64,000 nucleotides of DNA, from NCBI RefSeq assembly GCF_015775515.1, contig NZ_CP065383.1, positions 1,302,001 to 1,366,000 on the forward strand, in the 5' to 3' direction. The notes under the pieces are model-generated. The model was not told the origin of the DNA. It saw only the letters and a program-made list of their open reading frames with translations, and made no database searches. The first letter of the stretch is position 1, and each line of letters starts with the position of its first letter. Shown here piece after piece: positions 2,267 through 33,193 of this stretch. Both the position numbers and the translations under genes were made by a program. This DNA is from Atribacter laminatus. GTDB taxonomy: Bacteria; Atribacterota; Atribacteria; Atribacterales; Atribacteraceae.

Positions 2267-2542
2267 TGTCTTATTAATGTTTTTCCAATTACAAATATTA
2301 TTATTAATACAAGAATAAAGGCCTAGCACTAAAAAATATTTTCAATAGAGATGATCTTGAACTCATATTATCCCAGCAGATATCTAGATGCAATAAAAAA
2401 CCGAAGGTAGCATTTCAAGAGCTCATTTGGACCTAATCCCTTAGATTACAAACCCTATTAAGCCACTCCCCCCGCTTCAAAAAACATAACACATATTGTC
2501 TAAGAAAGCTTCGTTATCCGCTTTAAATAGTATGAAAAACTC
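2267..2542. other. AT-rich intergenic stretch with no recognisable gene
   Basis: This lies downstream of the defence operon. I see no coding frame, convincing terminator hairpin or further repeat here. Confidence 0.5.
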
Positions 2543-3988
2543 CTAGGAATGATTTTTGTTTCCCAAGATAATTTGTCTATTTAGATAGCTTCGATGTTTT
2601 GTCATAATATCTTTTAAGGTATCATCTGCTAAACCAATTTCTCGCAATAGTAAAAATTCAATAAGTAACTTCAATTTTTCTGATGCATTAAACATTTCTT
2701 CATCGTCAAAAACTTTACTCTTAAGCGATTCATCTCGATGAACTAAGTAATTACGAGTATCAACAACACGACGTAAAAAGTTATTGTCATTATTTGTAAT
2801 TAGATAAACAATAGGATCAGGTAAATTTTCCAAAATAAGTTCAAGACGTTTTTGAAGTGAATACACGTTACCATATTTTATTCTGTTTTTTAGAGCATCT
2901 AGATGTGCTGATGATAATGATTCTGGAATAGCTTTTATTAGGATTTCTCTAATTGGTTCATAATCTTCATTTGACATGTATAAGTTATTTCCCTTTATCC
3001 TATGAAAAGATTCAATTGCTTGTATTACAGCAAGGAATTTAAAATCTACAGGAAGATCCCGATTGATCGATAATCCAAAATTCAAAGCCGTTACCGTTTC
3101 AAGACTAGTGGATTTTTCAAACCAATTATTTAATATTATCTCCCAGATGTTTGACAAACTGGGATAAGTGAATGGAATCTGTGGTGGCAATAACTCTCTT
3201 TTTTCTCTTTTTGTTGTTTGATTAAAACAAAGATCCACTAAGGGAGAAAAATTTTTTTCCTGGGATCTAGATTTTATCTCATTATCTATAAAGAGAAGTA
3301 GTTGAATACGTATGATATAAATCGGTCGACCTATAAATAGGCTAAACAATTTTTGAAGGTTAAAAAGTACTTTTAAATTCCACTCAATATTTTGAGAAGA
3401 AAATGGAGTTATTCTTATTATTTCTTTGTTTGTACAAGTATAGCTATTATAGTATCTTGTATGAGTTATGACTGGATTAATTGAAATAGTTGCTTTTATA
3501 AATTCAACATCAACTGAGATCGAAGGAGGCTTACTATACATTATGATTTCTTTTGAATCTTCTTTTAATTGTTGATATGAAAATGGATCTTGATGCATCC
3601 AAGCACCTAAATCCATAAATTCTATTAATGCAGCTTTATAAAGTGTTAAATCAGGATTAACATATCCATCTCCTATATACAGCTGGTTAAAAATTACTCT
3701 GGTAATAATAATACAAGAACCATGCGAGTAATTTAGGCTGGAAAAAACTTCATAAACATCAACCAATGTACAATATTTACCATCATGTGTTTTTCCATAT
3801 AATAATGGTAAATACCCATAATCGTTGTTATTTATTGAAGTCTCTGGCCAAAATGTTCCATCAAGATCTAATTCCATCAATCCTTCTGGATTATATGAAA
3901 GTGTCCCAGGGATTTTATCTTTCTCTTTTAAGGGTAACCACCAAAAACCCCGCAGTTTAAACTTTTCAGAAATTATAGTTTTATCCAT
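2543..3988 (-). CDS. ApeA-like HEPN-domain anti-phage protein
   Basis: The 481-residue product begins with a segment (F-K-L-R-G-F-W-W-L-P near residue 10, then Y-N-P-E-G-L-M-E-L-D-L-D-G) typical of the ApeA N-terminal domain. It ends in a helical HEPN domain with the RNase motif R-N-Y-L-V-H (Rx4H) near residues 412-417. ApeA proteins are known as single-gene phage defence factors that act by HEPN RNA cleavage during abortive infection. It is the last gene of a minus-strand operon after mod, res and another RxxxxH protein, 57 bp downstream of the latter. I chose the ATG at 3988; a GTG lies one codon upstream and the ribosome site is weak. It has no signal peptide or membrane segment, so it should be cytoplasmic. 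Length fits the family. Confidence 0.8.
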   Translation of the reverse strand: MDKTIISEKFKLRGFWWLPLKEKDKIPGTLSYNPEGLMELDLDGTFWPETSINNNDYGYLPLLYGKTHDGKYCTLVDVYEVFSSLNYSHGSCIIITRVIFNQLYIGDGYVNPDLTLYKAALIEFMDLGAWMHQDPFSYQQLKEDSKEIIMYSKPPSISVDVEFIKATISINPVITHTRYYNSYTCTNKEIIRITPFSSQNIEWNLKVLFNLQKLFSLFIGRPIYIIRIQLLLFIDNEIKSRSQEKNFSPLVDLCFNQTTKREKRELLPPQIPFTYPSLSNIWEIILNNWFEKSTSLETVTALNFGLSINRDLPVDFKFLAVIQAIESFHRIKGNNLYMSNEDYEPIREILIKAIPESLSSAHLDALKNRIKYGNVYSLQKRLELILENLPDPIVYLITNNDNNFLRRVVDTRNYLVHRDESLKSKVFDDEEMFNASEKLKLLIEFLLLREIGLADDTLKDIMTKHRSYLNRQIILGNKNHS

Positions 3989-23107: not shown

Positions 23108-23160
23108 TTGACAGCAAAGTATTTATTTAATTAAAATAAAAATGTCAAAACGGTTCGACA
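23108..23160 (+). promoter_or_regulatory. Sigma70-type promoter with LacI-type operator
   Basis: TTGACA at 23108-23113 and TAAAAT at 23132-23137 are 18 bp apart. The expected transcription start falls within TGTCAAAACGGTTCGACA (23143-23160), an imperfect palindrome with 7 of 9 matching positions per arm, typical of LacI-family operators. It stands just before the regulator gene, so autorepression is likely. Confidence 0.7.
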
Positions 23161-23170
23161 GAGGTGAAGG

Positions 23171-24187
23171 ATGACAACTATTCGAGATGTTGCTCGGTTA
23201 GCTGGTGTTGCTCCCTCTACAGCTTCCTTGGCGCTAAACAGTCGAAAACGAGTAAGTTCCGATACCCGTCAGAAAGTCTTAGAAGCTGCTCAAGTTTTGG
23301 GTTATATACCGAATAGTTTAGCTAAAAATTTAACTGCCCAAAGGACGGGAATTATAGGTTTGCTGATGGCGGAAATCATCAATCCCTACCATGCCTCACT
23401 TACCCACTTTATTCAAAAGGAGCTTCGAAAAAGGAGTTATCGGATGAATCTTGGGATTACTGAGGGCGAGGCACTCATTGAGGAGGAAGTTCTCAAGGAC
23501 TTTATTTCTCAAAAGGTTGACGGTGTTCTTATCCACACTGCTGATATTATTAACTTCAATCTGTCAACTTTTTATGAACTCATTAAAAGGAAGATCCCTT
23601 CGGTATTGATCGGAGGAGGCATTGAAGGAGTAAATCTGCCGATAGTTGATGTTGAGTTAGAAAAGGGAAGTTACTTGCTTACACGATATTTAATCCAGAG
23701 GGGTTACAAAAGATTTCTTTTCCTTTCCGGAATGAAAGCAGCGATGACTTTTAAAAGACGAATTGATGGGTTTCAAAAAGCTATGCTCGAAAATGGCTAT
23801 CCAGTTTGGGAAACTGACATCGTAGAAACTCATCCAGATATCGAAGGTGGATATACAAGTTCTTTAGAAATATTTAACAAAAATCATCCTGATTATGATG
23901 TTATTCTTTGTGTAAATGATTATATGGCTTTTGGTGTCTTAAGAGCTCTAAGAGAATTAAAGATAAAAGTTCCGGAAAATATTGGTTTAGCCGGTTTTGA
24001 TGATATTAGTTTTGCTTCAGTAGCCGGCGTTCCTTTGACGACTGTTCATATACCAATTGAAGGATTAGCAATAAAAAGTGTTGACTTGCTTTATCAAAGG
24101 ATTCTGTATAAAGAGAGCTCTGAAGAAAAAAGTTTATGGAAAGAAACTGTAGATACTCAAGTAGTAGTTCGACAGTCAACCATCTAA
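23171..24187 (+). CDS. LacI-family transcriptional repressor
   Basis: The 338-residue regulator begins with the LacI helix-turn-helix T-I-R-D-V-A-R-L-A-G-V-A-P-S-T-A-S and hinge, followed by a periplasmic-binding-protein-like sensor domain. The sensor includes G-L-L-M-A-E-I-I-N-P-Y and G-L-A-G-F-D-D-I near the end. GAGGTGAAGG precedes the ATG. It probably controls its own promoter and the following sugar operon (24223-29913) in response to an imported sugar or its phosphate. Confidence 0.92.
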   Translation: MTTIRDVARLAGVAPSTASLALNSRKRVSSDTRQKVLEAAQVLGYIPNSLAKNLTAQRTGIIGLLMAEIINPYHASLTHFIQKELRKRSYRMNLGITEGEALIEEEVLKDFISQKVDGVLIHTADIINFNLSTFYELIKRKIPSVLIGGGIEGVNLPIVDVELEKGSYLLTRYLIQRGYKRFLFLSGMKAAMTFKRRIDGFQKAMLENGYPVWETDIVETHPDIEGGYTSSLEIFNKNHPDYDVILCVNDYMAFGVLRALRELKIKVPENIGLAGFDDISFASVAGVPLTTVHIPIEGLAIKSVDLLYQRILYKESSEEKSLWKETVDTQVVVRQSTI

Positions 24188-24222
24188 GTTAATTATATAT
24201 AATAGGAGGAGGGAATAATAAT

Positions 24223-25314
24223 ATGAACCACAAAGAGAGAATGTTAGCCGCCCTCAAATGCCAACCAGTTGACCGCATCCCTCATGGAGAACAAATGCTC
24301 CACGATATTTTAATTCAAAAAATATTAAAGGTAAAAATGCCAAAAGCTGAGGAAAATGCTTTAGTAAGATGGATGACTGAGGAACTGAGTGATTTTCAGT
24401 TTGATTGTCATAAAAAAGCTCGAGAATTTTTAGGCTTTGATTTTATTCATGTTTTTCCTCGTGAACCCTGGATCAAAATTGATGAATCGAAAGAAGGCTA
24501 TCCGATTTACCGTGATATTTGGGGCATGGAGGCTATCTCTACTCCATTCACCTATGAAATACTTAAAAAACCGGTTGAGAAACCAGGAGATTTAAAAACT
24601 CATCAGTTTCCAACGATTGACGAGTTTAAATATGATAATCTCCATAAATGGGTCCAAAAATCTGATTTTTTTGTAGTCGTTCAAATTGAAACCGGTTTTT
24701 TTAAAATAAACCAATTTATGGGTTTTAATAATTATATGTTTTATCTCTATGAACATCGAAAAGAACTTCTCGATTTTACAGCTCGTTTTTTTGATCACGT
24801 TTTTAACTTGGCTAAAAAGGTGATTCAGGAAGGAGCCGATTGTATCTGGCTTTCGAACGATTTTGCTTATAATACTGGTCCTTTTATGTCCCCCAAAGAC
24901 CTTTGGGAAATGGACTTCTCTTTTATGAAGGATGTAGTCAGGAAAATTCATGATTTAGGAAAACCAGTCGTGCTTCATGGTTGCGGAAATCAGAATTATA
25001 CTCTTGATATGCTTTTGGATTGTGAAATTGATGGTCTTCATTCTCTCCAACCTACGGCTGGTAACGATATTTGCCAAATCAAAGAAAAGTGTGGCGACCG
25101 ACTTTGTCTGATCGGCAATATCGATATTAGTGAGCTTCTTCCCTTTGGGTCTCCCTATGATGTTGATCAAGCCATTCAGGATTTGGTAGAAAAAGTTGGT
25201 AAGAAAAATGGTTTGGTTATAGCAACCTGTAATTTGCTGGATATGGATATTCCAATAGAAAATGCCATAACCATGCATTTTGCCGTTGATAAATATAGCG
25301 CTAGGTATTTATAA
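24223..25314 (+). CDS. UroD-superfamily protein with methyltransferase-type zinc ligands
   Basis: The 363-residue TIM-barrel protein begins M-N-H-K-E-R-M-L-A-A-L and continues with P-V-D-R-I-P, as in uroporphyrinogen decarboxylase and corrinoid methyltransferases (MtaA/MtbA). It carries L-H-G-C-G-N near residue 252, an H-x-C motif, and a Cys in A-T-C-N-L-L-D followed by I-P-I-E-N near the C-terminus. This His-x-Cys...Cys set matches the zinc site that activates thiols in MtaA-type methyltransferases, not a decarboxylase. No corrinoid-binding protein is encoded nearby. Being first in a LacI-controlled sugar-transport operon, it may demethylate or otherwise process the imported sugar; the function is unproven. 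Confidence 0.8.
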   Translation: MNHKERMLAALKCQPVDRIPHGEQMLHDILIQKILKVKMPKAEENALVRWMTEELSDFQFDCHKKAREFLGFDFIHVFPREPWIKIDESKEGYPIYRDIWGMEAISTPFTYEILKKPVEKPGDLKTHQFPTIDEFKYDNLHKWVQKSDFFVVVQIETGFFKINQFMGFNNYMFYLYEHRKELLDFTARFFDHVFNLAKKVIQEGADCIWLSNDFAYNTGPFMSPKDLWEMDFSFMKDVVRKIHDLGKPVVLHGCGNQNYTLDMLLDCEIDGLHSLQPTAGNDICQIKEKCGDRLCLIGNIDISELLPFGSPYDVDQAIQDLVEKVGKKNGLVIATCNLLDMDIPIENAITMHFAVDKYSARYL

Positions 25315-25357
25315 AGTTTTTTATTTTTTTTGATAAATATTATTCCTAAAGAAAAAG

Positions 25358-25367
25358 GAGGTGATAC
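25358..25367 (+). promoter_or_regulatory. Orphan strong ribosome-binding sequence upstream of the binding-protein gene
   Basis: AAAGGAGGTG stands about 70 bases before the real start of the sugar-binding protein gene, which has its own GGAGGAGG. A reading frame from its GTG would stop after seven codons. Similar orphan sites precede the other two binding-protein genes near 36486 and 50513. Confidence 0.5.
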
Positions 25368-25435
25368 TCAGTAGGAATGAGTAATTTTGTTCCATAGAGT
25401 TTTAGTGGGTTTTTATTACAGGAGGAGGAATGTTC

Positions 25436-26791
25436 ATGAAATCAAACCGATACGTTTTATTGATTATGCTTTTTGTTATCTTATGCATGAGTGCTGTAGC
25501 TTTAGGAAAAACTCAAATCACTATCTGGTGTTTATCTTTTGACCCCCATATAAATGGTTATACTGCTGTAAACAAGGCATTTATGGAATTAAACCCTGAT
25601 ATTGAAGTTATTCTTGAGCCACAACCGGGCCAAGCAGAATTAGGCGCCAAGATGAGAGCAGCACTGGCAGCGGGAGGCGGAGCGGAATTATTTTCAGGTA
25701 CTGGAACGCAAATCCTAGAATGGGCAGTTCCTGGATCAATTCAGCCTCTTACTCCGGATGTATTCCCATCAATGGAATGGGTAAAAGAAAATCTATCACC
25801 AGAATACTATTTACAATGTAACCTGAATGATCAAATCTGGGCGGTAGGCATACCTGATCCTCCCGGGGATACTGGTATTCTGGTTAACGTTGATCACTTA
25901 AACGAGGCTGGTTTAGCTGTTGAAAAAGCTTTTGTTGATACTGATCAGTTAATTGATTACGCTAAAAAACTGGCTCAATACGATTCTAGCGGTGACTTAA
26001 TCCGTTCCGGCCTTAGCTTTCAAGAGAGTAACGATCCTACCTACTTATTAAGTTACATTGCTGATCAGGGAGGAAAATTCTGGGATAACGATAAACAAGT
26101 ATTTACCTTCCAAACTCCCGAAGCTAAAAATGCTCTCCAATTTTTCTATGACCTTTTCTTTGTGCACAAAGTTGACAGCGTCAACATGCCGACCACTGGT
26201 GATGCCTTGGTACAAAATTTGGCTTCTATGGCATTCATGTGGCCGGAATATCTGCCCTTTACCGAAATAACTTATCCAGATATGAAATTTGACTTCATCA
26301 TGAAACCAGCTTTTGTCAAGGGACAGAAACCATTATTCAGCCATAGTGATACCTGGGATTTACTTATGCCCACTTATGTATCTGGCGAGAAAAAGGAAGC
26401 AGCGGTTAAATATCTGCAATATTTGGCCAGTGCTGAAGGACAATTGGTTTTCCTTGAGGAAAATCCTGGACTTCCAACTCCTCGTTCTCTCTGGGATAAC
26501 GAATACTTTAAAACTGGAAAAGGTGCTTATCTTGAACCAGTTATTGAGGCTATGAAGGAAGGATATTTCCGCTATTGGGGACCATTTCCAGAACAAGATA
26601 CTTTGCTCTACAACATCTGGTGGCCAAGTATCGATGCAATGATTCATGGAGAATTAACAGTTGATCAAGTCTTAGAACAAATGGAAGCCAATTCTAATCA
26701 ACAGGTTGCCACAATGAAAGAAAAATACCCGAACGTGCCGGCTACCTTTATTTATTGGGACGGACTTCCTGAAGATTTAGCCATTAAGTAA
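25436..26791 (+). CDS. CUT1 sugar ABC transporter, extracellular binding protein
   Basis: The 451-residue product has a signal peptide (hydrophobic residues 6-22, likely cleaved after A-V-A-L-G) and the family 1 solute-binding fold, starting T-Q-I-T-I-W-C and ending in W-W-P-S-I-D-A-M. It captures an oligosaccharide or sugar derivative outside the membrane and passes it to the two permeases downstream. ATG 25436 lies at good distance from GGAGGAGG; the ATG at 25430 is too close. A perfect 19-bp hairpin follows the stop codon and probably protects this part of the mRNA, giving more binding protein than permease. Confidence 0.92.
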   Translation: MKSNRYVLLIMLFVILCMSAVALGKTQITIWCLSFDPHINGYTAVNKAFMELNPDIEVILEPQPGQAELGAKMRAALAAGGGAELFSGTGTQILEWAVPGSIQPLTPDVFPSMEWVKENLSPEYYLQCNLNDQIWAVGIPDPPGDTGILVNVDHLNEAGLAVEKAFVDTDQLIDYAKKLAQYDSSGDLIRSGLSFQESNDPTYLLSYIADQGGKFWDNDKQVFTFQTPEAKNALQFFYDLFFVHKVDSVNMPTTGDALVQNLASMAFMWPEYLPFTEITYPDMKFDFIMKPAFVKGQKPLFSHSDTWDLLMPTYVSGEKKEAAVKYLQYLASAEGQLVFLEENPGLPTPRSLWDNEYFKTGKGAYLEPVIEAMKEGYFRYWGPFPEQDTLLYNIWWPSIDAMIHGELTVDQVLEQMEANSNQQVATMKEKYPNVPATFIYWDGLPEDLAIK

Positions 26792-26798
26792 GATTGTA

Positions 26799-26849
26799 TT
26801 TCTATTACTGGAAGGAAAATTTTTTATGAGTTCCTTCCAGTAATAGAAA
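26799..26849 (+). terminator. Perfect 19-bp intercistronic hairpin
   Basis: Bases 26799-26817 pair with 26831-26849 without mismatch around a 13-base loop. An A-rich sequence follows, not a T-run. Its position between binding-protein and permease genes suggests mRNA 3'-end stabilisation or partial termination. Confidence 0.75.
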
Positions 26850-26947
26850 ATAAAAAAGCTTTTTATTTTAGGTTTTTATTATTTTGTTGATGGTTTTGTT
26901 TGAATGATTAAGAATCAAGCCTTTCAGTCAAAAGGAGGTTTTTGCGA

Positions 26948-27853
26948 ATGCAACGTGGCTTCGCCACACGATATTTTCCCTGGCTGGTTTTGATTCCTGC
27001 CTTAGTCTGGTTTATTTTATTCGTGGCTTATCCTTTTGGTTATTCGATAGTGAGTAGCTTTTTTCTTTGGTTTGTTCAAAACCCAGCCTCAAGTAAATTT
27101 GTCGGTTTAAAAAATTACTTTGATATTTTTAAAGACCCCCGCTTTATTACTGCTCTCAGGAATACGATGCTATATGCCTTACTAAAAACTGGTTTAGTCG
27201 TTTTTATCGGTGTGCTCTTAGCTAAAACTTTGTTTGCTATTAAATTTGGGAGCAGAGGGTATATGTTTTCAATTTTTTTACCATCATTATGTTCTATGGT
27301 AGCCATAGGTCTTTTTTTTACCTACCTCTATCAACCTCAATTTGGATTATTTAATGTATTACTCAGTAAAATTGGTATTTCAAGGCAAGGCTTTCTGAAC
27401 AGTCCTCAGCAAGCAATTTATTGTGTTATTATTACTGAAGCTTGGCAGGCTCTTGGATTCTCAACCTTAATATTTTTAACCGGATTAAATACCATACCCG
27501 ATGTCTTTTACGAGGCAGCACAAATTGATGGAGCCAGCTCCTTTGTTACCTTTTGGAAAATAATCTTTCCTTTAGCAAGAAGAGTGTTTCTATTTATAAC
27601 TGCAATTACAGCTATTTCTGCATTCCAAGCTTTCGATTTAGTTTTTGTGATGACCTTATCCGGTGGTGGAACCGGGGGTTCATCAGGTGGCCCTGGTTAC
27701 AGCAGCTATACCATGGCTCTTCAAGTTTATAACGATGGAATACTGCGATCTCAGACTGGAATAGCTTCGGCTATTGCAATAATGCTATTTGTCATTATTG
27801 GGGTATTAACCCTTTTGCAGCTTAAAATTCTTAAACCAGAATGGGAATATTAA
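26948..27853 (+). CDS. CUT1 sugar ABC transporter permease, MalF type
   Basis: The product of about 301 residues has six membrane helices, beginning W-L-V-L-I-P-A-L-V-W-F. The EAA loop that contacts the ATPase reads Y-E-A-A-Q-I-D-G-A near residue 190. ATG 26948 is nine bases from AGGAGG; a TTG at 26942 is too close. It pairs with the next gene to form the channel. No ATPase gene is in this operon, so a shared MsiK/MalK-type ATPase encoded elsewhere is expected. Confidence 0.9.
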   Translation: MQRGFATRYFPWLVLIPALVWFILFVAYPFGYSIVSSFFLWFVQNPASSKFVGLKNYFDIFKDPRFITALRNTMLYALLKTGLVVFIGVLLAKTLFAIKFGSRGYMFSIFLPSLCSMVAIGLFFTYLYQPQFGLFNVLLSKIGISRQGFLNSPQQAIYCVIITEAWQALGFSTLIFLTGLNTIPDVFYEAAQIDGASSFVTFWKIIFPLARRVFLFITAITAISAFQAFDLVFVMTLSGGGTGGSSGGPGYSSYTMALQVYNDGILRSQTGIASAIAIMLFVIIGVLTLLQLKILKPEWEY

Positions 27854-27870
27854 AGGATGGGAGGATCATA

Positions 27871-28710
27871 ATGTCTTCAAAAAGAAAAAATGAGATAACT
27901 GAGCAAACCAAATCCCATACGATCGCTATCATTGTTTCTCTTATTATGATAATCCCTTTTTTTTGGATGATTCTGTCATCTTTTAAGCCTGGAACCGAAA
28001 TTGTAAAAATGCCTCCCACTTTTTTCCCCCAAACTTTTACTTTAAAAAATTACCAAACTTTATTCGAAAGGCTTCCCTTTGGTAGGTATTTCCTGAACAG
28101 CATAATTGTATCAGGTGGGATAACCATAATATCGATGTTCTCCAGTTCGATGCTGGGGTATGTGTTTGCAAAATTTAACTTTAAATTTAAAAACTTTTTC
28201 TTTTTCCTCCTGATGAGTGGTTTTATGATTCCATTTGCAACCTTGGTTATTCCTATGTATCTGCTTACCGCCAAAATTGGATTAACTAATAATTATTTAG
28301 GACTCATTTTGCCATTTTGTCTCAGCCCCTTCGGAATGTTTCTCATGAAACAGTTTATGGAGGATATTCCCAACGATTATATAGAAGCAGCCCGCTTAGA
28401 CGGTGCATCCGAGCTTTGGATTTATAGTCGCATTATTTTGCCTTTAACCAGCGCCGCCTTAGGGGGAGTTGCTATTTATAATTTCCTAATGACTTGGAAT
28501 CAGCTTTGGTGGCCTTTAATGGTTACTTCGCAACCAGCGATGCGGACCTTGCCTTTAGGAGTTGCTGCTTTAGCCCAACAGCAAGGGAAAAGGTATGATT
28601 TATTAATTACCGGGGCTTCGGTTTCAGTTTTACCCATCATTGTTTTGTTTGCTATTGCTCAAAAACAAATTGTGAAAGGATTATCGGTTTCAAGTGGTTT
28701 GAAGATGTAA
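27871..28710 (+). CDS. CUT1 sugar ABC transporter permease, MalG type
   Basis: The 279-residue product has six membrane helices and the EAA loop Y-I-E-A-A-R-L-D-G-A near residue 170. The C-terminus (Q-I-V-K-G-L-S-V-S-S-G) is typical of MalG-like subunits. ATG 27871 follows GGGAGG at a good distance and is preferred over an upstream ATG at 27841 that would overlap the preceding gene. Confidence 0.9.
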   Translation: MSSKRKNEITEQTKSHTIAIIVSLIMIIPFFWMILSSFKPGTEIVKMPPTFFPQTFTLKNYQTLFERLPFGRYFLNSIIVSGGITIISMFSSSMLGYVFAKFNFKFKNFFFFLLMSGFMIPFATLVIPMYLLTAKIGLTNNYLGLILPFCLSPFGMFLMKQFMEDIPNDYIEAARLDGASELWIYSRIILPLTSAALGGVAIYNFLMTWNQLWWPLMVTSQPAMRTLPLGVAALAQQQGKRYDLLITGASVSVLPIIVLFAIAQKQIVKGLSVSSGLKM

Positions 28711-28737
28711 TTGGCATTGACAAGTAGGAGGAATTTT

Positions 28738-29913
28738 ATGAAAAAGATAATTATTCGCTTCCCTTATACTGAAATACTGAAAAGAAAAGCTCGCTGGGAA
28801 AAAGTTTGGAATTTCCAACAACCCGACCGAGTTCCGGTTTTGCATTATATTGGTTCAAGGTATTGGTTGCCTTTAATTGGGTATGAGAACCGATTCCATG
28901 ATTATCTCAATGACCCGGGCGTGATGTTGGAAGCCCAGCTTTTAGGAGCCAAATGGATTTTAGAGAATATTAGGTCTGATTATCACCAAATCGTATTTTA
29001 TCCAGATTTTATGTGGGTAGAAGATGTTGAACCTTTTGGAGCAGAAATTGTTTATCAAGAAGATGATTCTCCCTGGGTAGCCCGCCCTCATTTTTTGCAA
29101 AAAAACGATAATTTAGATCAACTTCGTTCAGTTGATTATATAAATAACGGACTTCATGGGAAAATGATTTCTTACTATCAGGAAATGAAAAAGAAAGCCG
29201 AGGATTATGAAATTCAATTTTCCGACGGAAAAATTATACCCGCTGTTGATTGTGTGATGATGGGTGGCGGAGGAATTATTGGTCCAACGGTTATAGCAGG
29301 AGATCTAAGAAGTGCTGATAATTTTGCAATGGATTTATACGATCGTCCTGATTGGGTGAAAGATTTGTTGTCAATTATTTCAGAGAAAGCAATCGATTGG
29401 CTCAATGTTGCCAGAGAAATTGGAGGTGGTAAGGTCGCTTTTTGTAGTTCTTATTTGGAAGGAACTACTTTTATTGGAGATGATGGTACTGCTCAACTAT
29501 CACCAAAACAATTTAAAGAATTTGCTCTTCCTGCTTTAAAAAAATTAGCAGAGAATATTCATGGTCGGGGTTTGAAAGTAATAGCCCATAATTGTGGGCA
29601 AGCCGATCACCTTATTGATTTATGGACCAATGAGGTGGGAATCGATATCTATTATGGGTTTAGCTATCTTACAAATAAGAACCTTATTAAGGAAATAATG
29701 GGTGGGAAAGTTATCCTTATTGGTGGAATAGATACTGTAAAACTCCATGGCGGAAAACCAGAAGATATTCGAGAAGACGTTCGGCAAAGCCTTGAGGTTC
29801 TTAAGGATTGTCCGGGATATATAATTATGGATGGGCATAATGTAGCTCCCGGTACACCGGTTGAGAATTTGAATGCCGTTACTGATGCTGCTGAAGAATT
29901 TGGAAGGTTTTAA
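28738..29913 (+). CDS. Second UroD-superfamily protein of the sugar operon
   Basis: The 391-residue product is a longer relative of 24223-25314: Q-Q-P-D-R-V-P-V near residue 28, A-H-N-C-G near 290, and D-G-H-N-V-A-P-G-T-P-V-E-N-L at the C-terminus. The H-x-C pair is kept, but the third ligand position, Cys in MtaA-type methyltransferases, is His within G-H-N. ATG 28738 has AGGAGG six bases upstream; a TTG at 28711 is unlikely. As last gene of the CUT1 operon before a strong terminator, it is probably part of the same pathway. It may transfer a methyl group or act on a sugar; the substrate is unknown. Confidence 0.78.
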   Translation: MKKIIIRFPYTEILKRKARWEKVWNFQQPDRVPVLHYIGSRYWLPLIGYENRFHDYLNDPGVMLEAQLLGAKWILENIRSDYHQIVFYPDFMWVEDVEPFGAEIVYQEDDSPWVARPHFLQKNDNLDQLRSVDYINNGLHGKMISYYQEMKKKAEDYEIQFSDGKIIPAVDCVMMGGGGIIGPTVIAGDLRSADNFAMDLYDRPDWVKDLLSIISEKAIDWLNVAREIGGGKVAFCSSYLEGTTFIGDDGTAQLSPKQFKEFALPALKKLAENIHGRGLKVIAHNCGQADHLIDLWTNEVGIDIYYGFSYLTNKNLIKEIMGGKVILIGGIDTVKLHGGKPEDIREDVRQSLEVLKDCPGYIIMDGHNVAPGTPVENLNAVTDAAEEFGRF

Positions 29914-29956: not shown

Positions 29957-29999
29957 CTCGCTCTCTTTCACCCCAGTCGCTCAGGAGAGCGAGTTTTTT
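29957..29999 (+). terminator. Intrinsic terminator of the CUT1 operon
   Basis: CTCGCTCTC pairs perfectly with GAGAGCGAG and is followed by six T residues, 44 bp after the last operon gene. Confidence 0.88.
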
Positions 30000-31135: not shown

Positions 31136-31984
31136 ATGAAAATTGGGATCGATAGTTATTGTTATCATCGGTATTTTGGCGAAGTATATGATTTCCAACA
31201 AAATCCTGGAAAAAGAATAACCTTTGACCAATTTTTAAAGCGGTCGAGTGAACTTGGGGTTGATGTTGTTTCCCTTGAAACTTGTTTTTTCCCTGAAAAC
31301 GAAAAAGATTTTTTGAAAAAGTTGAAAGATCAATTAATTGAGTTAAAGTTGGATCCAGTGGTGGCTTGGGGTCATCCTGATGGTTTTGAAGGTGGGAAAA
31401 AACCCGAAGCAGTCAAGGACCTTAAAAAGCATTTAAAAACTTGTCAAGAATTAAATGCACAAGTTATGAGAATTGTTGTCTCCAGCCTGGCTTTCCGACA
31501 TGAACCTCATGGCCCTCAAATCGAAAAAGTATCAAAAATTCTTCAAGATGTTATGCCCCTATTTGAAGATTATGGCGTAAAATTAGGCATAGAAAACCAT
31601 TTTGATTTTACTTCTGATGAATTGCTTGAGATTATTGAGAAAGTTGGTTCTTCTAAACTCGGGGTAACCTTCGATTCCGGTAATGCTCTTCGTATTGGAG
31701 AGGACCCAATTGAGGCTGCCCGTAAACTATTCGATAAAATATTTGCTACTCACATCAAAGATGTTGCTCCTCTATATGGTGGGAATCCATCCGACTGGTA
31801 TTTCTTTGCCAGTGTACCGGCAGGAAGGGGCATTATCGACTTTCCCGGTTTGGTTCAGGTTTTTAAAGATAATCATTATCAAGAGAGTTTGACCTTAGAA
31901 ATTGATTATTTAGATCCAAAGTATGGGGATGAAGATCAAGCTGTTACTGAGAGTATAAAATATTTACAGAAAATTACTGTGTGA
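31136..31984 (+). CDS. Sugar phosphate isomerase/epimerase (xylose isomerase-like TIM barrel)
   Basis: The 282-residue product starts M-K-I-G-I-D-S-Y-C-Y-H and has the AP-endonuclease-2-like barrel with metal-binding residues in G-I-E-N-H-F-D near 143, T-F-D-S-G-N near 178, T-H-I-K-D near 204 and L-E-I-D-Y near the end. Such enzymes isomerise or epimerise keto-sugars or dehydrate inositol derivatives. AAGGAGAGG precedes the ATG. The next gene, a Gfo/Idh dehydrogenase, follows after 12 bp, a common pairing in inositol and rare-sugar pathways. Confidence 0.88.
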   Translation: MKIGIDSYCYHRYFGEVYDFQQNPGKRITFDQFLKRSSELGVDVVSLETCFFPENEKDFLKKLKDQLIELKLDPVVAWGHPDGFEGGKKPEAVKDLKKHLKTCQELNAQVMRIVVSSLAFRHEPHGPQIEKVSKILQDVMPLFEDYGVKLGIENHFDFTSDELLEIIEKVGSSKLGVTFDSGNALRIGEDPIEAARKLFDKIFATHIKDVAPLYGGNPSDWYFFASVPAGRGIIDFPGLVQVFKDNHYQESLTLEIDYLDPKYGDEDQAVTESIKYLQKITV

Positions 31985-31996
31985 TAGGTGAATTCC

Positions 31997-33193
31997 ATGG
32001 ATCAAAAGGGTTTTTTCCAGGTAGATTACTCAAAATCGGACTTTATTGAAGTGAAGATTGGTATGTTGGGATATGGTTTTATGGGACAAGTTCATTCTAA
32101 TGCATTTATAAAAGTTCCTTTCAGTTTTTCCGATCCGGTTGCCCGACCTGTCCTATTGGCAATATGTGGTCGTAATCAAAAAAAAGTTGAAGATACTGCG
32201 CGCAGGTTTGGTTACAAAGAGTATTGTCTTGATTGGCAACTACTGGCTAAAGATCCCCGGATTGACATTTTTGATAACTGTACACCAGACGATTGGCATT
32301 ATCTTCCTTCCATAGTAGCCATGGAGAACGGAAAACATGTTATATGTGAAAAGCCTTTATCTTTAAAGCTTGAAGAAGCTTTCCAAATGGCTCAGAAAGC
32401 TCGGGAAACTAAAATTAAGACGATGTGTTGTTATAATTATCGTTTTCTTCCTGCGGTTCGATTTGCACACCAGCTTATTAAACAGGGAATATTGGGAAAA
32501 ATTTACCAGTTCCGAGCCAAATACTTACAACAACAAGGACACAATCCTTTTGAGCACATTGAAAAGGTGTGGTACGCTCATGGTACCAAATCTGGAATTC
32601 TTATGGGAATCGGAAGCCATATTATTGATATGGCACACTTTTTAATTGGCGAAATAACAGCGGTCAGCGGATTAAGAAAAACATATAATCAGATGCGGAA
32701 AGATTGTTCGGGTAAGTCTAACCCAGTTTCTGCAGATGAATGTACCATTGCAATTTTGGAATTTAAAAATGGCGCAATTGGGACAATTGAATCATCAGGA
32801 GTAAGTACCGGGAGAAAGAACTATCAAGGTTGGGAAATTAATGGTTCCAAAGGGAGTATAGTTTTTGATCTTGAAGATTTAAACCACTTGCAAGTCTATT
32901 CTACCGATGCTAACCCACCTGAAATCCAAGGTTTTAGTAATGTTTTAGTAACTGATTCCGAGCATCCGTTACAAATAAATTATTTGCCTTCTGGTCATAA
33001 TCAAGGTTGGGAATATGGACATGTTCATGCTCTTCATCATTTTTTAGATTGTGTAGTTAATGACAAGCCCGTGGAACCATTGGGAGCTTCCTTTCAAGAT
33101 GGATATCGGGTCCAAGTAGTGATTGAAGCCATCAACCAATCTTCAGCAAGAGGCAAACGAGTTGAAATTAAAGAGTTTGGACGGGATATTTGA
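31997..33193 (+). CDS. Gfo/Idh/MocA-family oxidoreductase
   Basis: The 398-residue product has the NAD(P)-binding motif G-Y-G-F-M-G-Q-V-H near residue 25, the catalytic E-K-P at C-E-K-P-L near 117, and G-S-H-I-I-D-M-A-H (catalytic Asp/His) near 208. It oxidises or reduces a sugar or cyclitol. ATG 31997 follows AGGTGA at six bases and is chosen over a TTG at 31988. With the preceding epimerase-like gene it forms a two-gene unit divergent from the AraC regulator. Confidence 0.9.
   Translation: MDQKGFFQVDYSKSDFIEVKIGMLGYGFMGQVHSNAFIKVPFSFSDPVARPVLLAICGRNQKKVEDTARRFGYKEYCLDWQLLAKDPRIDIFDNCTPDDWHYLPSIVAMENGKHVICEKPLSLKLEEAFQMAQKARETKIKTMCCYNYRFLPAVRFAHQLIKQGILGKIYQFRAKYLQQQGHNPFEHIEKVWYAHGTKSGILMGIGSHIIDMAHFLIGEITAVSGLRKTYNQMRKDCSGKSNPVSADECTIAILEFKNGAIGTIESSGVSTGRKNYQGWEINGSKGSIVFDLEDLNHLQVYSTDANPPEIQGFSNVLVTDSEHPLQINYLPSGHNQGWEYGHVHALHHFLDCVVNDKPVEPLGASFQDGYRVQVVIEAINQSSARGKRVEIKEFGRDI

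Follow-up and report, generated by a model that had tools for sequence, protein, structure and literature searches.

What is the function of two proteins of the uroporphyrinogen decarboxylase (UroD) superfamily that flank a sugar transporter? The question is raised by a 64,000-nt stretch of the Atribacter laminatus genome (the window; genome 1302001-1366000), in which genes for a LacI-family regulator, a first UroD-family protein (UroD1), a solute-binding protein, two permeases and a second UroD-family protein (UroD2) form one collinear plus-strand unit with short gaps at 23171-29913. Coordinates without further label are positions in the window; the genome itself is a single contig of 3,101,225 bases. 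The open reading frame (ORF) calls and Pfam agree on the arrangement described in an earlier note on this DNA, a sugar ATP-binding cassette (ABC) transporter framed by two UroD-superfamily proteins. The reading favored here, with a probability of about 0.58, is that the operon serves to import a methylated sugar, polyol or glycoside and to demethylate it in a corrinoid-dependent reaction, using a soluble corrinoid protein (CP) supplied in trans.

Both proteins resemble the methyltransferase MtaA in their fold. AlphaFold2 models of UroD1 and UroD2 (predicted local distance difference test, pLDDT, 94.7 and 89.7, respectively) have MtaA as their best PDB fold match, ahead of HemE, with E-values of 1.4e-15 and 8.5e-15. 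MtaA likewise came first when the UroD1 alignment was used for a profile search (E 1.6e-30). CdmB is among the best PDB sequence matches of UroD2. Pfam and the fold matches thus give both proteins the methyltransferase fold found in corrinoid-dependent systems. Membership of the MtaA and MtbA families, to which the earlier note had likened them, is not supported by family scores: the two proteins score 38-77 bits against family models with cut-offs of 235-600. In a tree of 56 rows, in which constrained placements were evaluated with approximately unbiased (AU) tests, UroD1 lies in a large, mostly sugar-linked UroD group apart from MtaA, and its inclusion in the MtaA clade was rejected (AU p 2e-5). 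UroD2 branches deeply and in isolation, and could still join either MtaA (AU p 0.23) or a group of methyltransferases linked to CPs and their activase, RACo (p 0.42). A sister relationship between UroD1 and UroD2 was also rejected (AU p 1.3e-4).

The Pfam family name is the only indication that these could be true uroporphyrinogen decarboxylases or other tetrapyrrole enzymes, an idea with next to no chance of being right. The MRQAGR and FSDIL motifs of E. coli HemE are missing, HxC is present, UroD2 scores 41 bits against the hemE equivalog cut-off of 303, UroD1 is not listed for that model at all, and sugar genes are the neighbors in several phyla. By family scores, then, neither protein is an MtaA or a HemE.

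The putative metal site consists of H252-G-C254-G-N plus C336 in UroD1 and H293-N-C295-G plus H376 in UroD2, and these residues are predicted to bind a metal. The H-x-C motif reported earlier is present in both proteins, and UroD2 does have His at the third site, as does HemE in the alignment. The third Cys claimed for UroD1 is a more qualified case. C336 exists and is conserved in orthologues, but in the multiple alignment it lies one residue before the zinc-Cys column of MtaA, which holds N337, whereas phmmer aligns it to the MtaA Cys by means of a one-residue gap. Because of this offset, the match to the third ligand of MtaA was rejected as proof of zinc. UroD1 orthologues keep both C336 and HxC in Actinomycetota, in a Spirochaete and in another family of Atribacterota, and the orthologues in other phyla sit in sugar-transport loci. 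The concern that the ligands might not be conserved among relatives is thereby met, since the candidates are retained among orthologues in other phyla. Sister proteins of UroD1 with HxD lack both Cys, and this joint loss supports the view that C254 and C336 would act together. HxC is not peculiar to UroD1 and UroD2, being present in most of the 31 UroD paralogues of the genome; nearly all of these have His at site 1, whereas C predominates at site 2 with an occasional D, and site 3 is C, H, N or another residue.

The earlier note had seen no corrinoid protein near the operon and had supposed that one might be supplied elsewhere, and both points are borne out. The window contains no PF02607 match, and the only two in the genome lie about 1.0-1.2 Mb away. 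A single soluble CP was found in the genome, a 224-aa protein with a DLHDIG motif (genome 2388689-2389363). Its gene adjoins that for formyltetrahydrofolate synthetase (FTHFS), and serine hydroxymethyltransferase (SHMT), a MetV-type domain, MetF and FAD/Fe-S proteins are encoded in the same region. The only PF00809 protein of the genome is a short methyl-tetrahydrofolate methyltransferase (MeTr), encoded about 16 kb downstream of the CP cluster beside folC. It contains the sequence CGLSNISFG, which we take to be a hallmark of AcsE/MtgA-type methyltransferases. With the one RACo in the genome, the components of a corrinoid methyltransferase system (CP, MT2 and activase) are all encoded, and almost all genomes of the order have the same CP (78-95% identity). 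That the CP serves only a PF01717-type methionine synthase was rejected, as no such MetE-type protein was found in the genome. MetH also appears to be absent, judging by the PF00809 and PF02607 matches, because the only PF00809 protein is the short MeTr. An MtaA-like UroD at genome 925856, present across the order, could be a candidate for methionine synthase.

Distant relatives of UroD1 are encoded next to CPs in sugar loci of other bacteria. On a Dehalococcoidia contig (L081), genes for an MFS_2 sugar symporter, a UroD (HSCGN) and a CP are consecutive on one strand; a melibiase-like gene lies close by on the opposite strand. The Actinomycetota genome G063, which carries a UroD1 orthologue, has two such loci: CUT2 transporter genes, an FGGY kinase, a xylose-isomerase-like protein, a UroD (HSDGK) and a CP are consecutive in L121, while L120 is a run of a CUT1 binding protein, two permeases, two UroDs, a CP, MttB, ROK and a third UroD. 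The UroD-CP-MttB arrangement is seen again in a second Actinomycetota genome (L114). The CP-adjacent UroDs of the Dehalococcoidia and Actinomycetota sugar loci fall on the UroD1 side of the tree, and soluble CPs are present in 5/5 of the tested genomes with UroD1 homologues. MttB-family genes stand beside soluble CPs in Actinomycetota metagenome-assembled genomes (MAGs; L114, L116 and L120); in L120 and L114 they also adjoin UroD genes, and in L120 a CUT1 transporter, an unusual mix of two methyltransferase superfamilies.

Plasmids offered few relatives, mostly from anaerobes or belonging to the Cmu methyltransferases. A Subdoligranulum variabile gut plasmid (OY725838.1; L130, L131) carries glycoside hydrolase (GH) genes of families GH2, GH78 and GH38, several UroDs, a CUT1 transporter and RACo. 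The GH2 gene, three UroDs, ROK and an alpha-L-rhamnosidase are close together, with RACo about 10 kb off, and this is possibly a human-gut glycan demethylation locus. For a UroD2-like match in a Gemmatirosa plasmid (H11), the scan gave no UroD gene call, and a Vescimonas cobalamin-binding protein under a weak match was set aside as it is not in a sugar locus.

In the Atribacter genome itself, the association of UroD genes with sugar uptake extends well beyond the operon. There are 31 PF01208 matches, one of which (genome 415590-415988) has an internal stop, and none is a true HemE. Eighteen UroD genes are beside ABC transporter genes, 17 of them sugar-type, and 12 lie within 2.5 kb of binding-protein-dependent (BPD) permeases. 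Counted as clusters, 10/28 are within 2.5 kb of BPD (CUT1-type) permeases where 3.9 would be expected, a number reached in 10/3000 random placements. A further six UroD genes stand beside CUT2-type transporter genes or, for L049, beside a Peripla_BP_6-type transporter. Kinases (FGGY, ROK or PfkB) and a GH77 enzyme are encoded next to several UroD genes. Two of the UroDs (genome 1098574 and 925856) possess the complete HxC...C set and fall close to MtaA, and a third (genome 850533) groups with the CP/RACo-linked methyltransferases of other genomes. A 443-aa protein without a Pfam match (L043:2854-4185), encoded beside sugar transporters, is weakly similar to UroD2 (YGCCEPL motif) and may belong to a divergent branch of UroDs that PF01208 does not recognize.

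The proposed pathway would start with import of a methylated sugar, polyol or glycoside by the CUT1 transporter, followed by demethylation in the cytoplasm. UroD1 and/or UroD2 would be substrate-specific MT1-type methyltransferases, each taking a methyl group off the imported compound and delivering it to the Co(I) of the single shared CP. RACo would hold the CP in its reduced state, which is the known role of the RACo family, and the AcsE/MtgA-type MeTr would transfer the methyl group from the CP to tetrahydrofolate, for use by MetF and FTHFS. The freed sugar would enter ordinary catabolism, perhaps via the isomerase-like and Gfo/Idh proteins encoded at 31136-33193, and LacI would respond to the sugar. 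The two UroDs could serve two methyl positions, or one of them could act on the acceptor side. The earlier suggestion that an imported methylated sugar is processed, perhaps by demethylation, gains from the corrinoid system in trans, the conserved ligands and the CP-adjacent relatives on the UroD1 side; as for the methylated sugar itself, it is the genomic context that points to it.

Several observations weigh against this pathway. There is no CP gene in the operon, and a CP beside the methyltransferase gene is found for distant relatives in other phyla only. Those relatives are 22-26% identical to UroD1, and the deep nodes of the tree have moderate support, so the adjacency is evidence for the group without proving the case of this operon. 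The CP of L120 and L114 also adjoins the MttB gene and may serve MttB instead, and the clade of UroD2 has no CP-adjacent member. Some sugar-linked relatives, even CP-adjacent ones, carry HxD in place of HxC, and a zinc-thiolate site is therefore not universal. Finally, genomes of the same order are all rich in UroDs (4-28 each) and the sister classes have few or none, but the latter mostly keep the CP and, less often, RACo. The CP/RACo machinery must therefore have another function too, and its presence alone proves nothing. RACo is found in 26/30 UroD-rich versus 8/20 UroD-poor Atribacterota genomes (n = 50, Fisher p 0.0014), an association confounded by ancestry; inside the sister classes alone, the co-occurrence has p 0.16.

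The retention of CP and RACo without UroDs would also fit a different role, in which UroD1 and UroD2 are corrinoid-free, metal-dependent TIM-barrel sugar enzymes (isomerase, epimerase, lyase, decarboxylase or hydrolase) and the H/C/D/H residues bind a catalytic metal. The sets of sugar transporter, kinase and UroD look like transporter-isomerase-kinase operons, the second and third ligands vary between paralogues (C/D/H/N), some 30 UroDs face a single CP, and a Chloroflexota plasmid locus combines a UroD with Gfo/Idh, ROK and CUT2 with no CP nearby. Such a role is the main rival reading, though considered rather unlikely. Several relatives directly adjoin a CP in sugar loci, the cluster often has a downstream isomerase already (as in L121 and the window), and HxC...C is kept in UroD1 orthologues. 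To our knowledge, moreover, the characterized non-HemE members of the superfamily are all methyl or alkyl transferases.

If the proteins are corrinoid methyltransferases, their substrate might still be something other than a sugar, such as a methylthio compound, a betaine or another methylated solute, or they might catalyze an acceptor-side step like that of MtaA. In MtaA and MtbA, the zinc site serves to activate a thiol acceptor; the presence of MttB in the L120 and L114 clusters with UroD and CP would be expected if MttB were the donor-side and UroD the acceptor-side enzyme, and CUT1-like importers are able to carry other solutes. We regard this as quite improbable: MttB is absent from the window operon, L121 and L081, and kinases, isomerases, glycosidases, and LacI and ROK regulators recur beside these UroDs.

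Among known systems, MtaA and MtbA (PDB 4ay7, 4ay8) share with UroD1 and UroD2 the UroD fold and HxC, and with UroD1 a third Cys, and are the top structural and profile matches. They differ in family and, for UroD1, clade, in the third ligand (offset by one residue in UroD1, His in UroD2) and in the sugar-transport context of the Atribacter proteins. We know of no role for coenzyme M in bacteria of this kind. MtvB, OdmB and VdmB are aromatic O-demethylases and CdmB is a chloromethane dehalogenase, all of them UroD-superfamily MT1 enzymes that transfer methyl groups via a CP to tetrahydrofolate (PMC13222342), as proposed here for UroD1 and UroD2. In contrast to the Atribacter operon, the CP and MT2 are encoded beside those enzymes and the substrates are different; CdmB, in addition, has neither HxC nor zinc (PMC13222342). 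In the Type 1 mlp clusters, too, several bacterial methyltransferases of the UroD family cooperate with a CP and an activase of the RACo type: Mlp2 and Mlp3 are encoded with both in one cluster, and methyl-selenium or methyl-sulfur substrates have been proposed (PMC10418091). The mlp clusters lack sugar transporters, whereas the window genes have no neighboring CP or RACo. Cytochrome P450-dependent demethylation of the algal sugar 6-O-methyl-D-galactose is reported from marine bacteria (PMC10033563). There, too, a methyl ether is taken off a sugar before normal catabolism, but the route is oxidative and O2-dependent, releases formaldehyde and uses unrelated enzymes. The Atribacter operon would be its anaerobic, corrinoid counterpart.

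The features of the operon and its surroundings are collected in Table 1. With a promoter-like site just ahead of lacI and a terminator-like hairpin beyond UroD2, the unit from LacI to UroD2 is plausibly a single transcript. The promoter carries little weight, as the scan as a whole yields fewer sites in the real than in shuffled sequence. The gene position suggests that LacI controls the operon; a palindrome search for its operator gave no convincing candidate. According to Pfam and family models, the transporter has the binding protein and two MalF/MalG-type permeases of a CUT1 importer. No ATPase gene was found within the LacI-UroD2 unit; sharing of an ATPase between CUT1 systems is common. 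The Gfo/Idh/MocA oxidoreductase scores below the levoglucosan dehydrogenase cut-off.

Table 1. Features of the UroD1-UroD2 operon and its surroundings (window positions).
Feature	Position	Strand	Basis
Promoter-like site TTGACA-18-TAAAAT before lacI	23108..23137	+	Sigma-70-like consensus scan, 11/12 matches
LacI-family regulator	23171..24187	+	Pfam LacI helix-turn-helix + Peripla_BP_3
UroD1, 363 aa, putative corrinoid-dependent methyltransferase	24223..25314	+	PF01208 (URO-D) E 2.1e-24
UroD1 candidate metal ligands H252, C254, C336	within 24223..25314	+	Conserved in orthologues
CUT1-type solute-binding protein (SBP)	25430..26791	+	Pfam SBP_bac_1
CUT1 permease, UgpA/MalF type (PermF)	26942..27853	+	BPD_transp_1; nearest models UgpA, GlcT
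CUT1 permease, UgpE/MalG type (PermG)	27841..28710	+	BPD_transp_1; nearest models GlcU, UgpE
UroD2, 400 aa, putative corrinoid-dependent methyltransferase	28711..29913	+	PF01208 E 2.4e-30
UroD2 candidate ligands H293, C295, H376	within 28711..29913	+	Motif conserved in orthologues
Terminator-like hairpin, then T tract, after UroD2	29977..29992	+	Sequence scan
Xylose-isomerase-like TIM-barrel protein, possible downstream sugar enzyme (association only)	31136..31984	+	AP_endonuc_2
Gfo/Idh/MocA oxidoreductase, possible downstream sugar enzyme (association only)	31988..33193	+	GFO_IDH_MocA

Complete or almost complete matches to UroD1 and UroD2 within the genus have 88-97% identity; in a different family of the order, the identity is 77% and 71%, respectively, and the gene order is retained there. 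Another Atribacterota MAG (L076:1217-2281, 2460-3630) has an in-frame TAG in UroD1 and a split binding-protein gene, from either assembly error or decay. A conserved protein of about 400 aa without a Pfam match (L078:1842-3035, L080:11139-12335, L053:10978-12180) sits directly 3' of UroD1 in two Actinomycetota MAGs and by eye is cupin/phosphomannose-isomerase-like. A protein of 387 aa that carries B12-binding domains, possibly a B12-binding regulator, is encoded next to a GGDEF gene and a few kb away from a CUT1-UroD cluster (L052:7323-8486, minus strand).

The individual parts of the operon are of known kinds; we know of no description of sugar-linked corrinoid demethylation. Polysaccharides of plants, algae and microbes commonly contain methyl-ether sugars. 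Within the open-access literature, to which the search was confined (subscription papers lay outside its scope), no report of O-demethylation of sugars by corrinoid enzymes was found, and the sugar demethylation route that did appear there is the oxidative one by P450. A. laminatus RT761 ferments many sugars, rhamnose and pectin among them (PMC7736352). The gene neighborhoods here and in other anaerobes suggest a widespread, undescribed anoxic route for removing methyl groups from sugars. A broader proposal, offered tentatively and at somewhat under even odds, is that a large, undescribed UroD-fold family demethylates imported methyl-ether sugars or polyols via CPs in anaerobic bacteria, and that in Atribacterota a single CP is shared by as many as about 30 such enzymes in a hub-and-spoke form of carbohydrate methylotrophy. 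A corrinoid route tied to sugar uptake would explain the use of methyl-ether sugars by anaerobes of sediments and guts, assign roles to many genes that currently carry the label uroporphyrinogen decarboxylase, and provide an extra source of methyl groups for sugar fermentation in an abundant deep-subsurface phylum.

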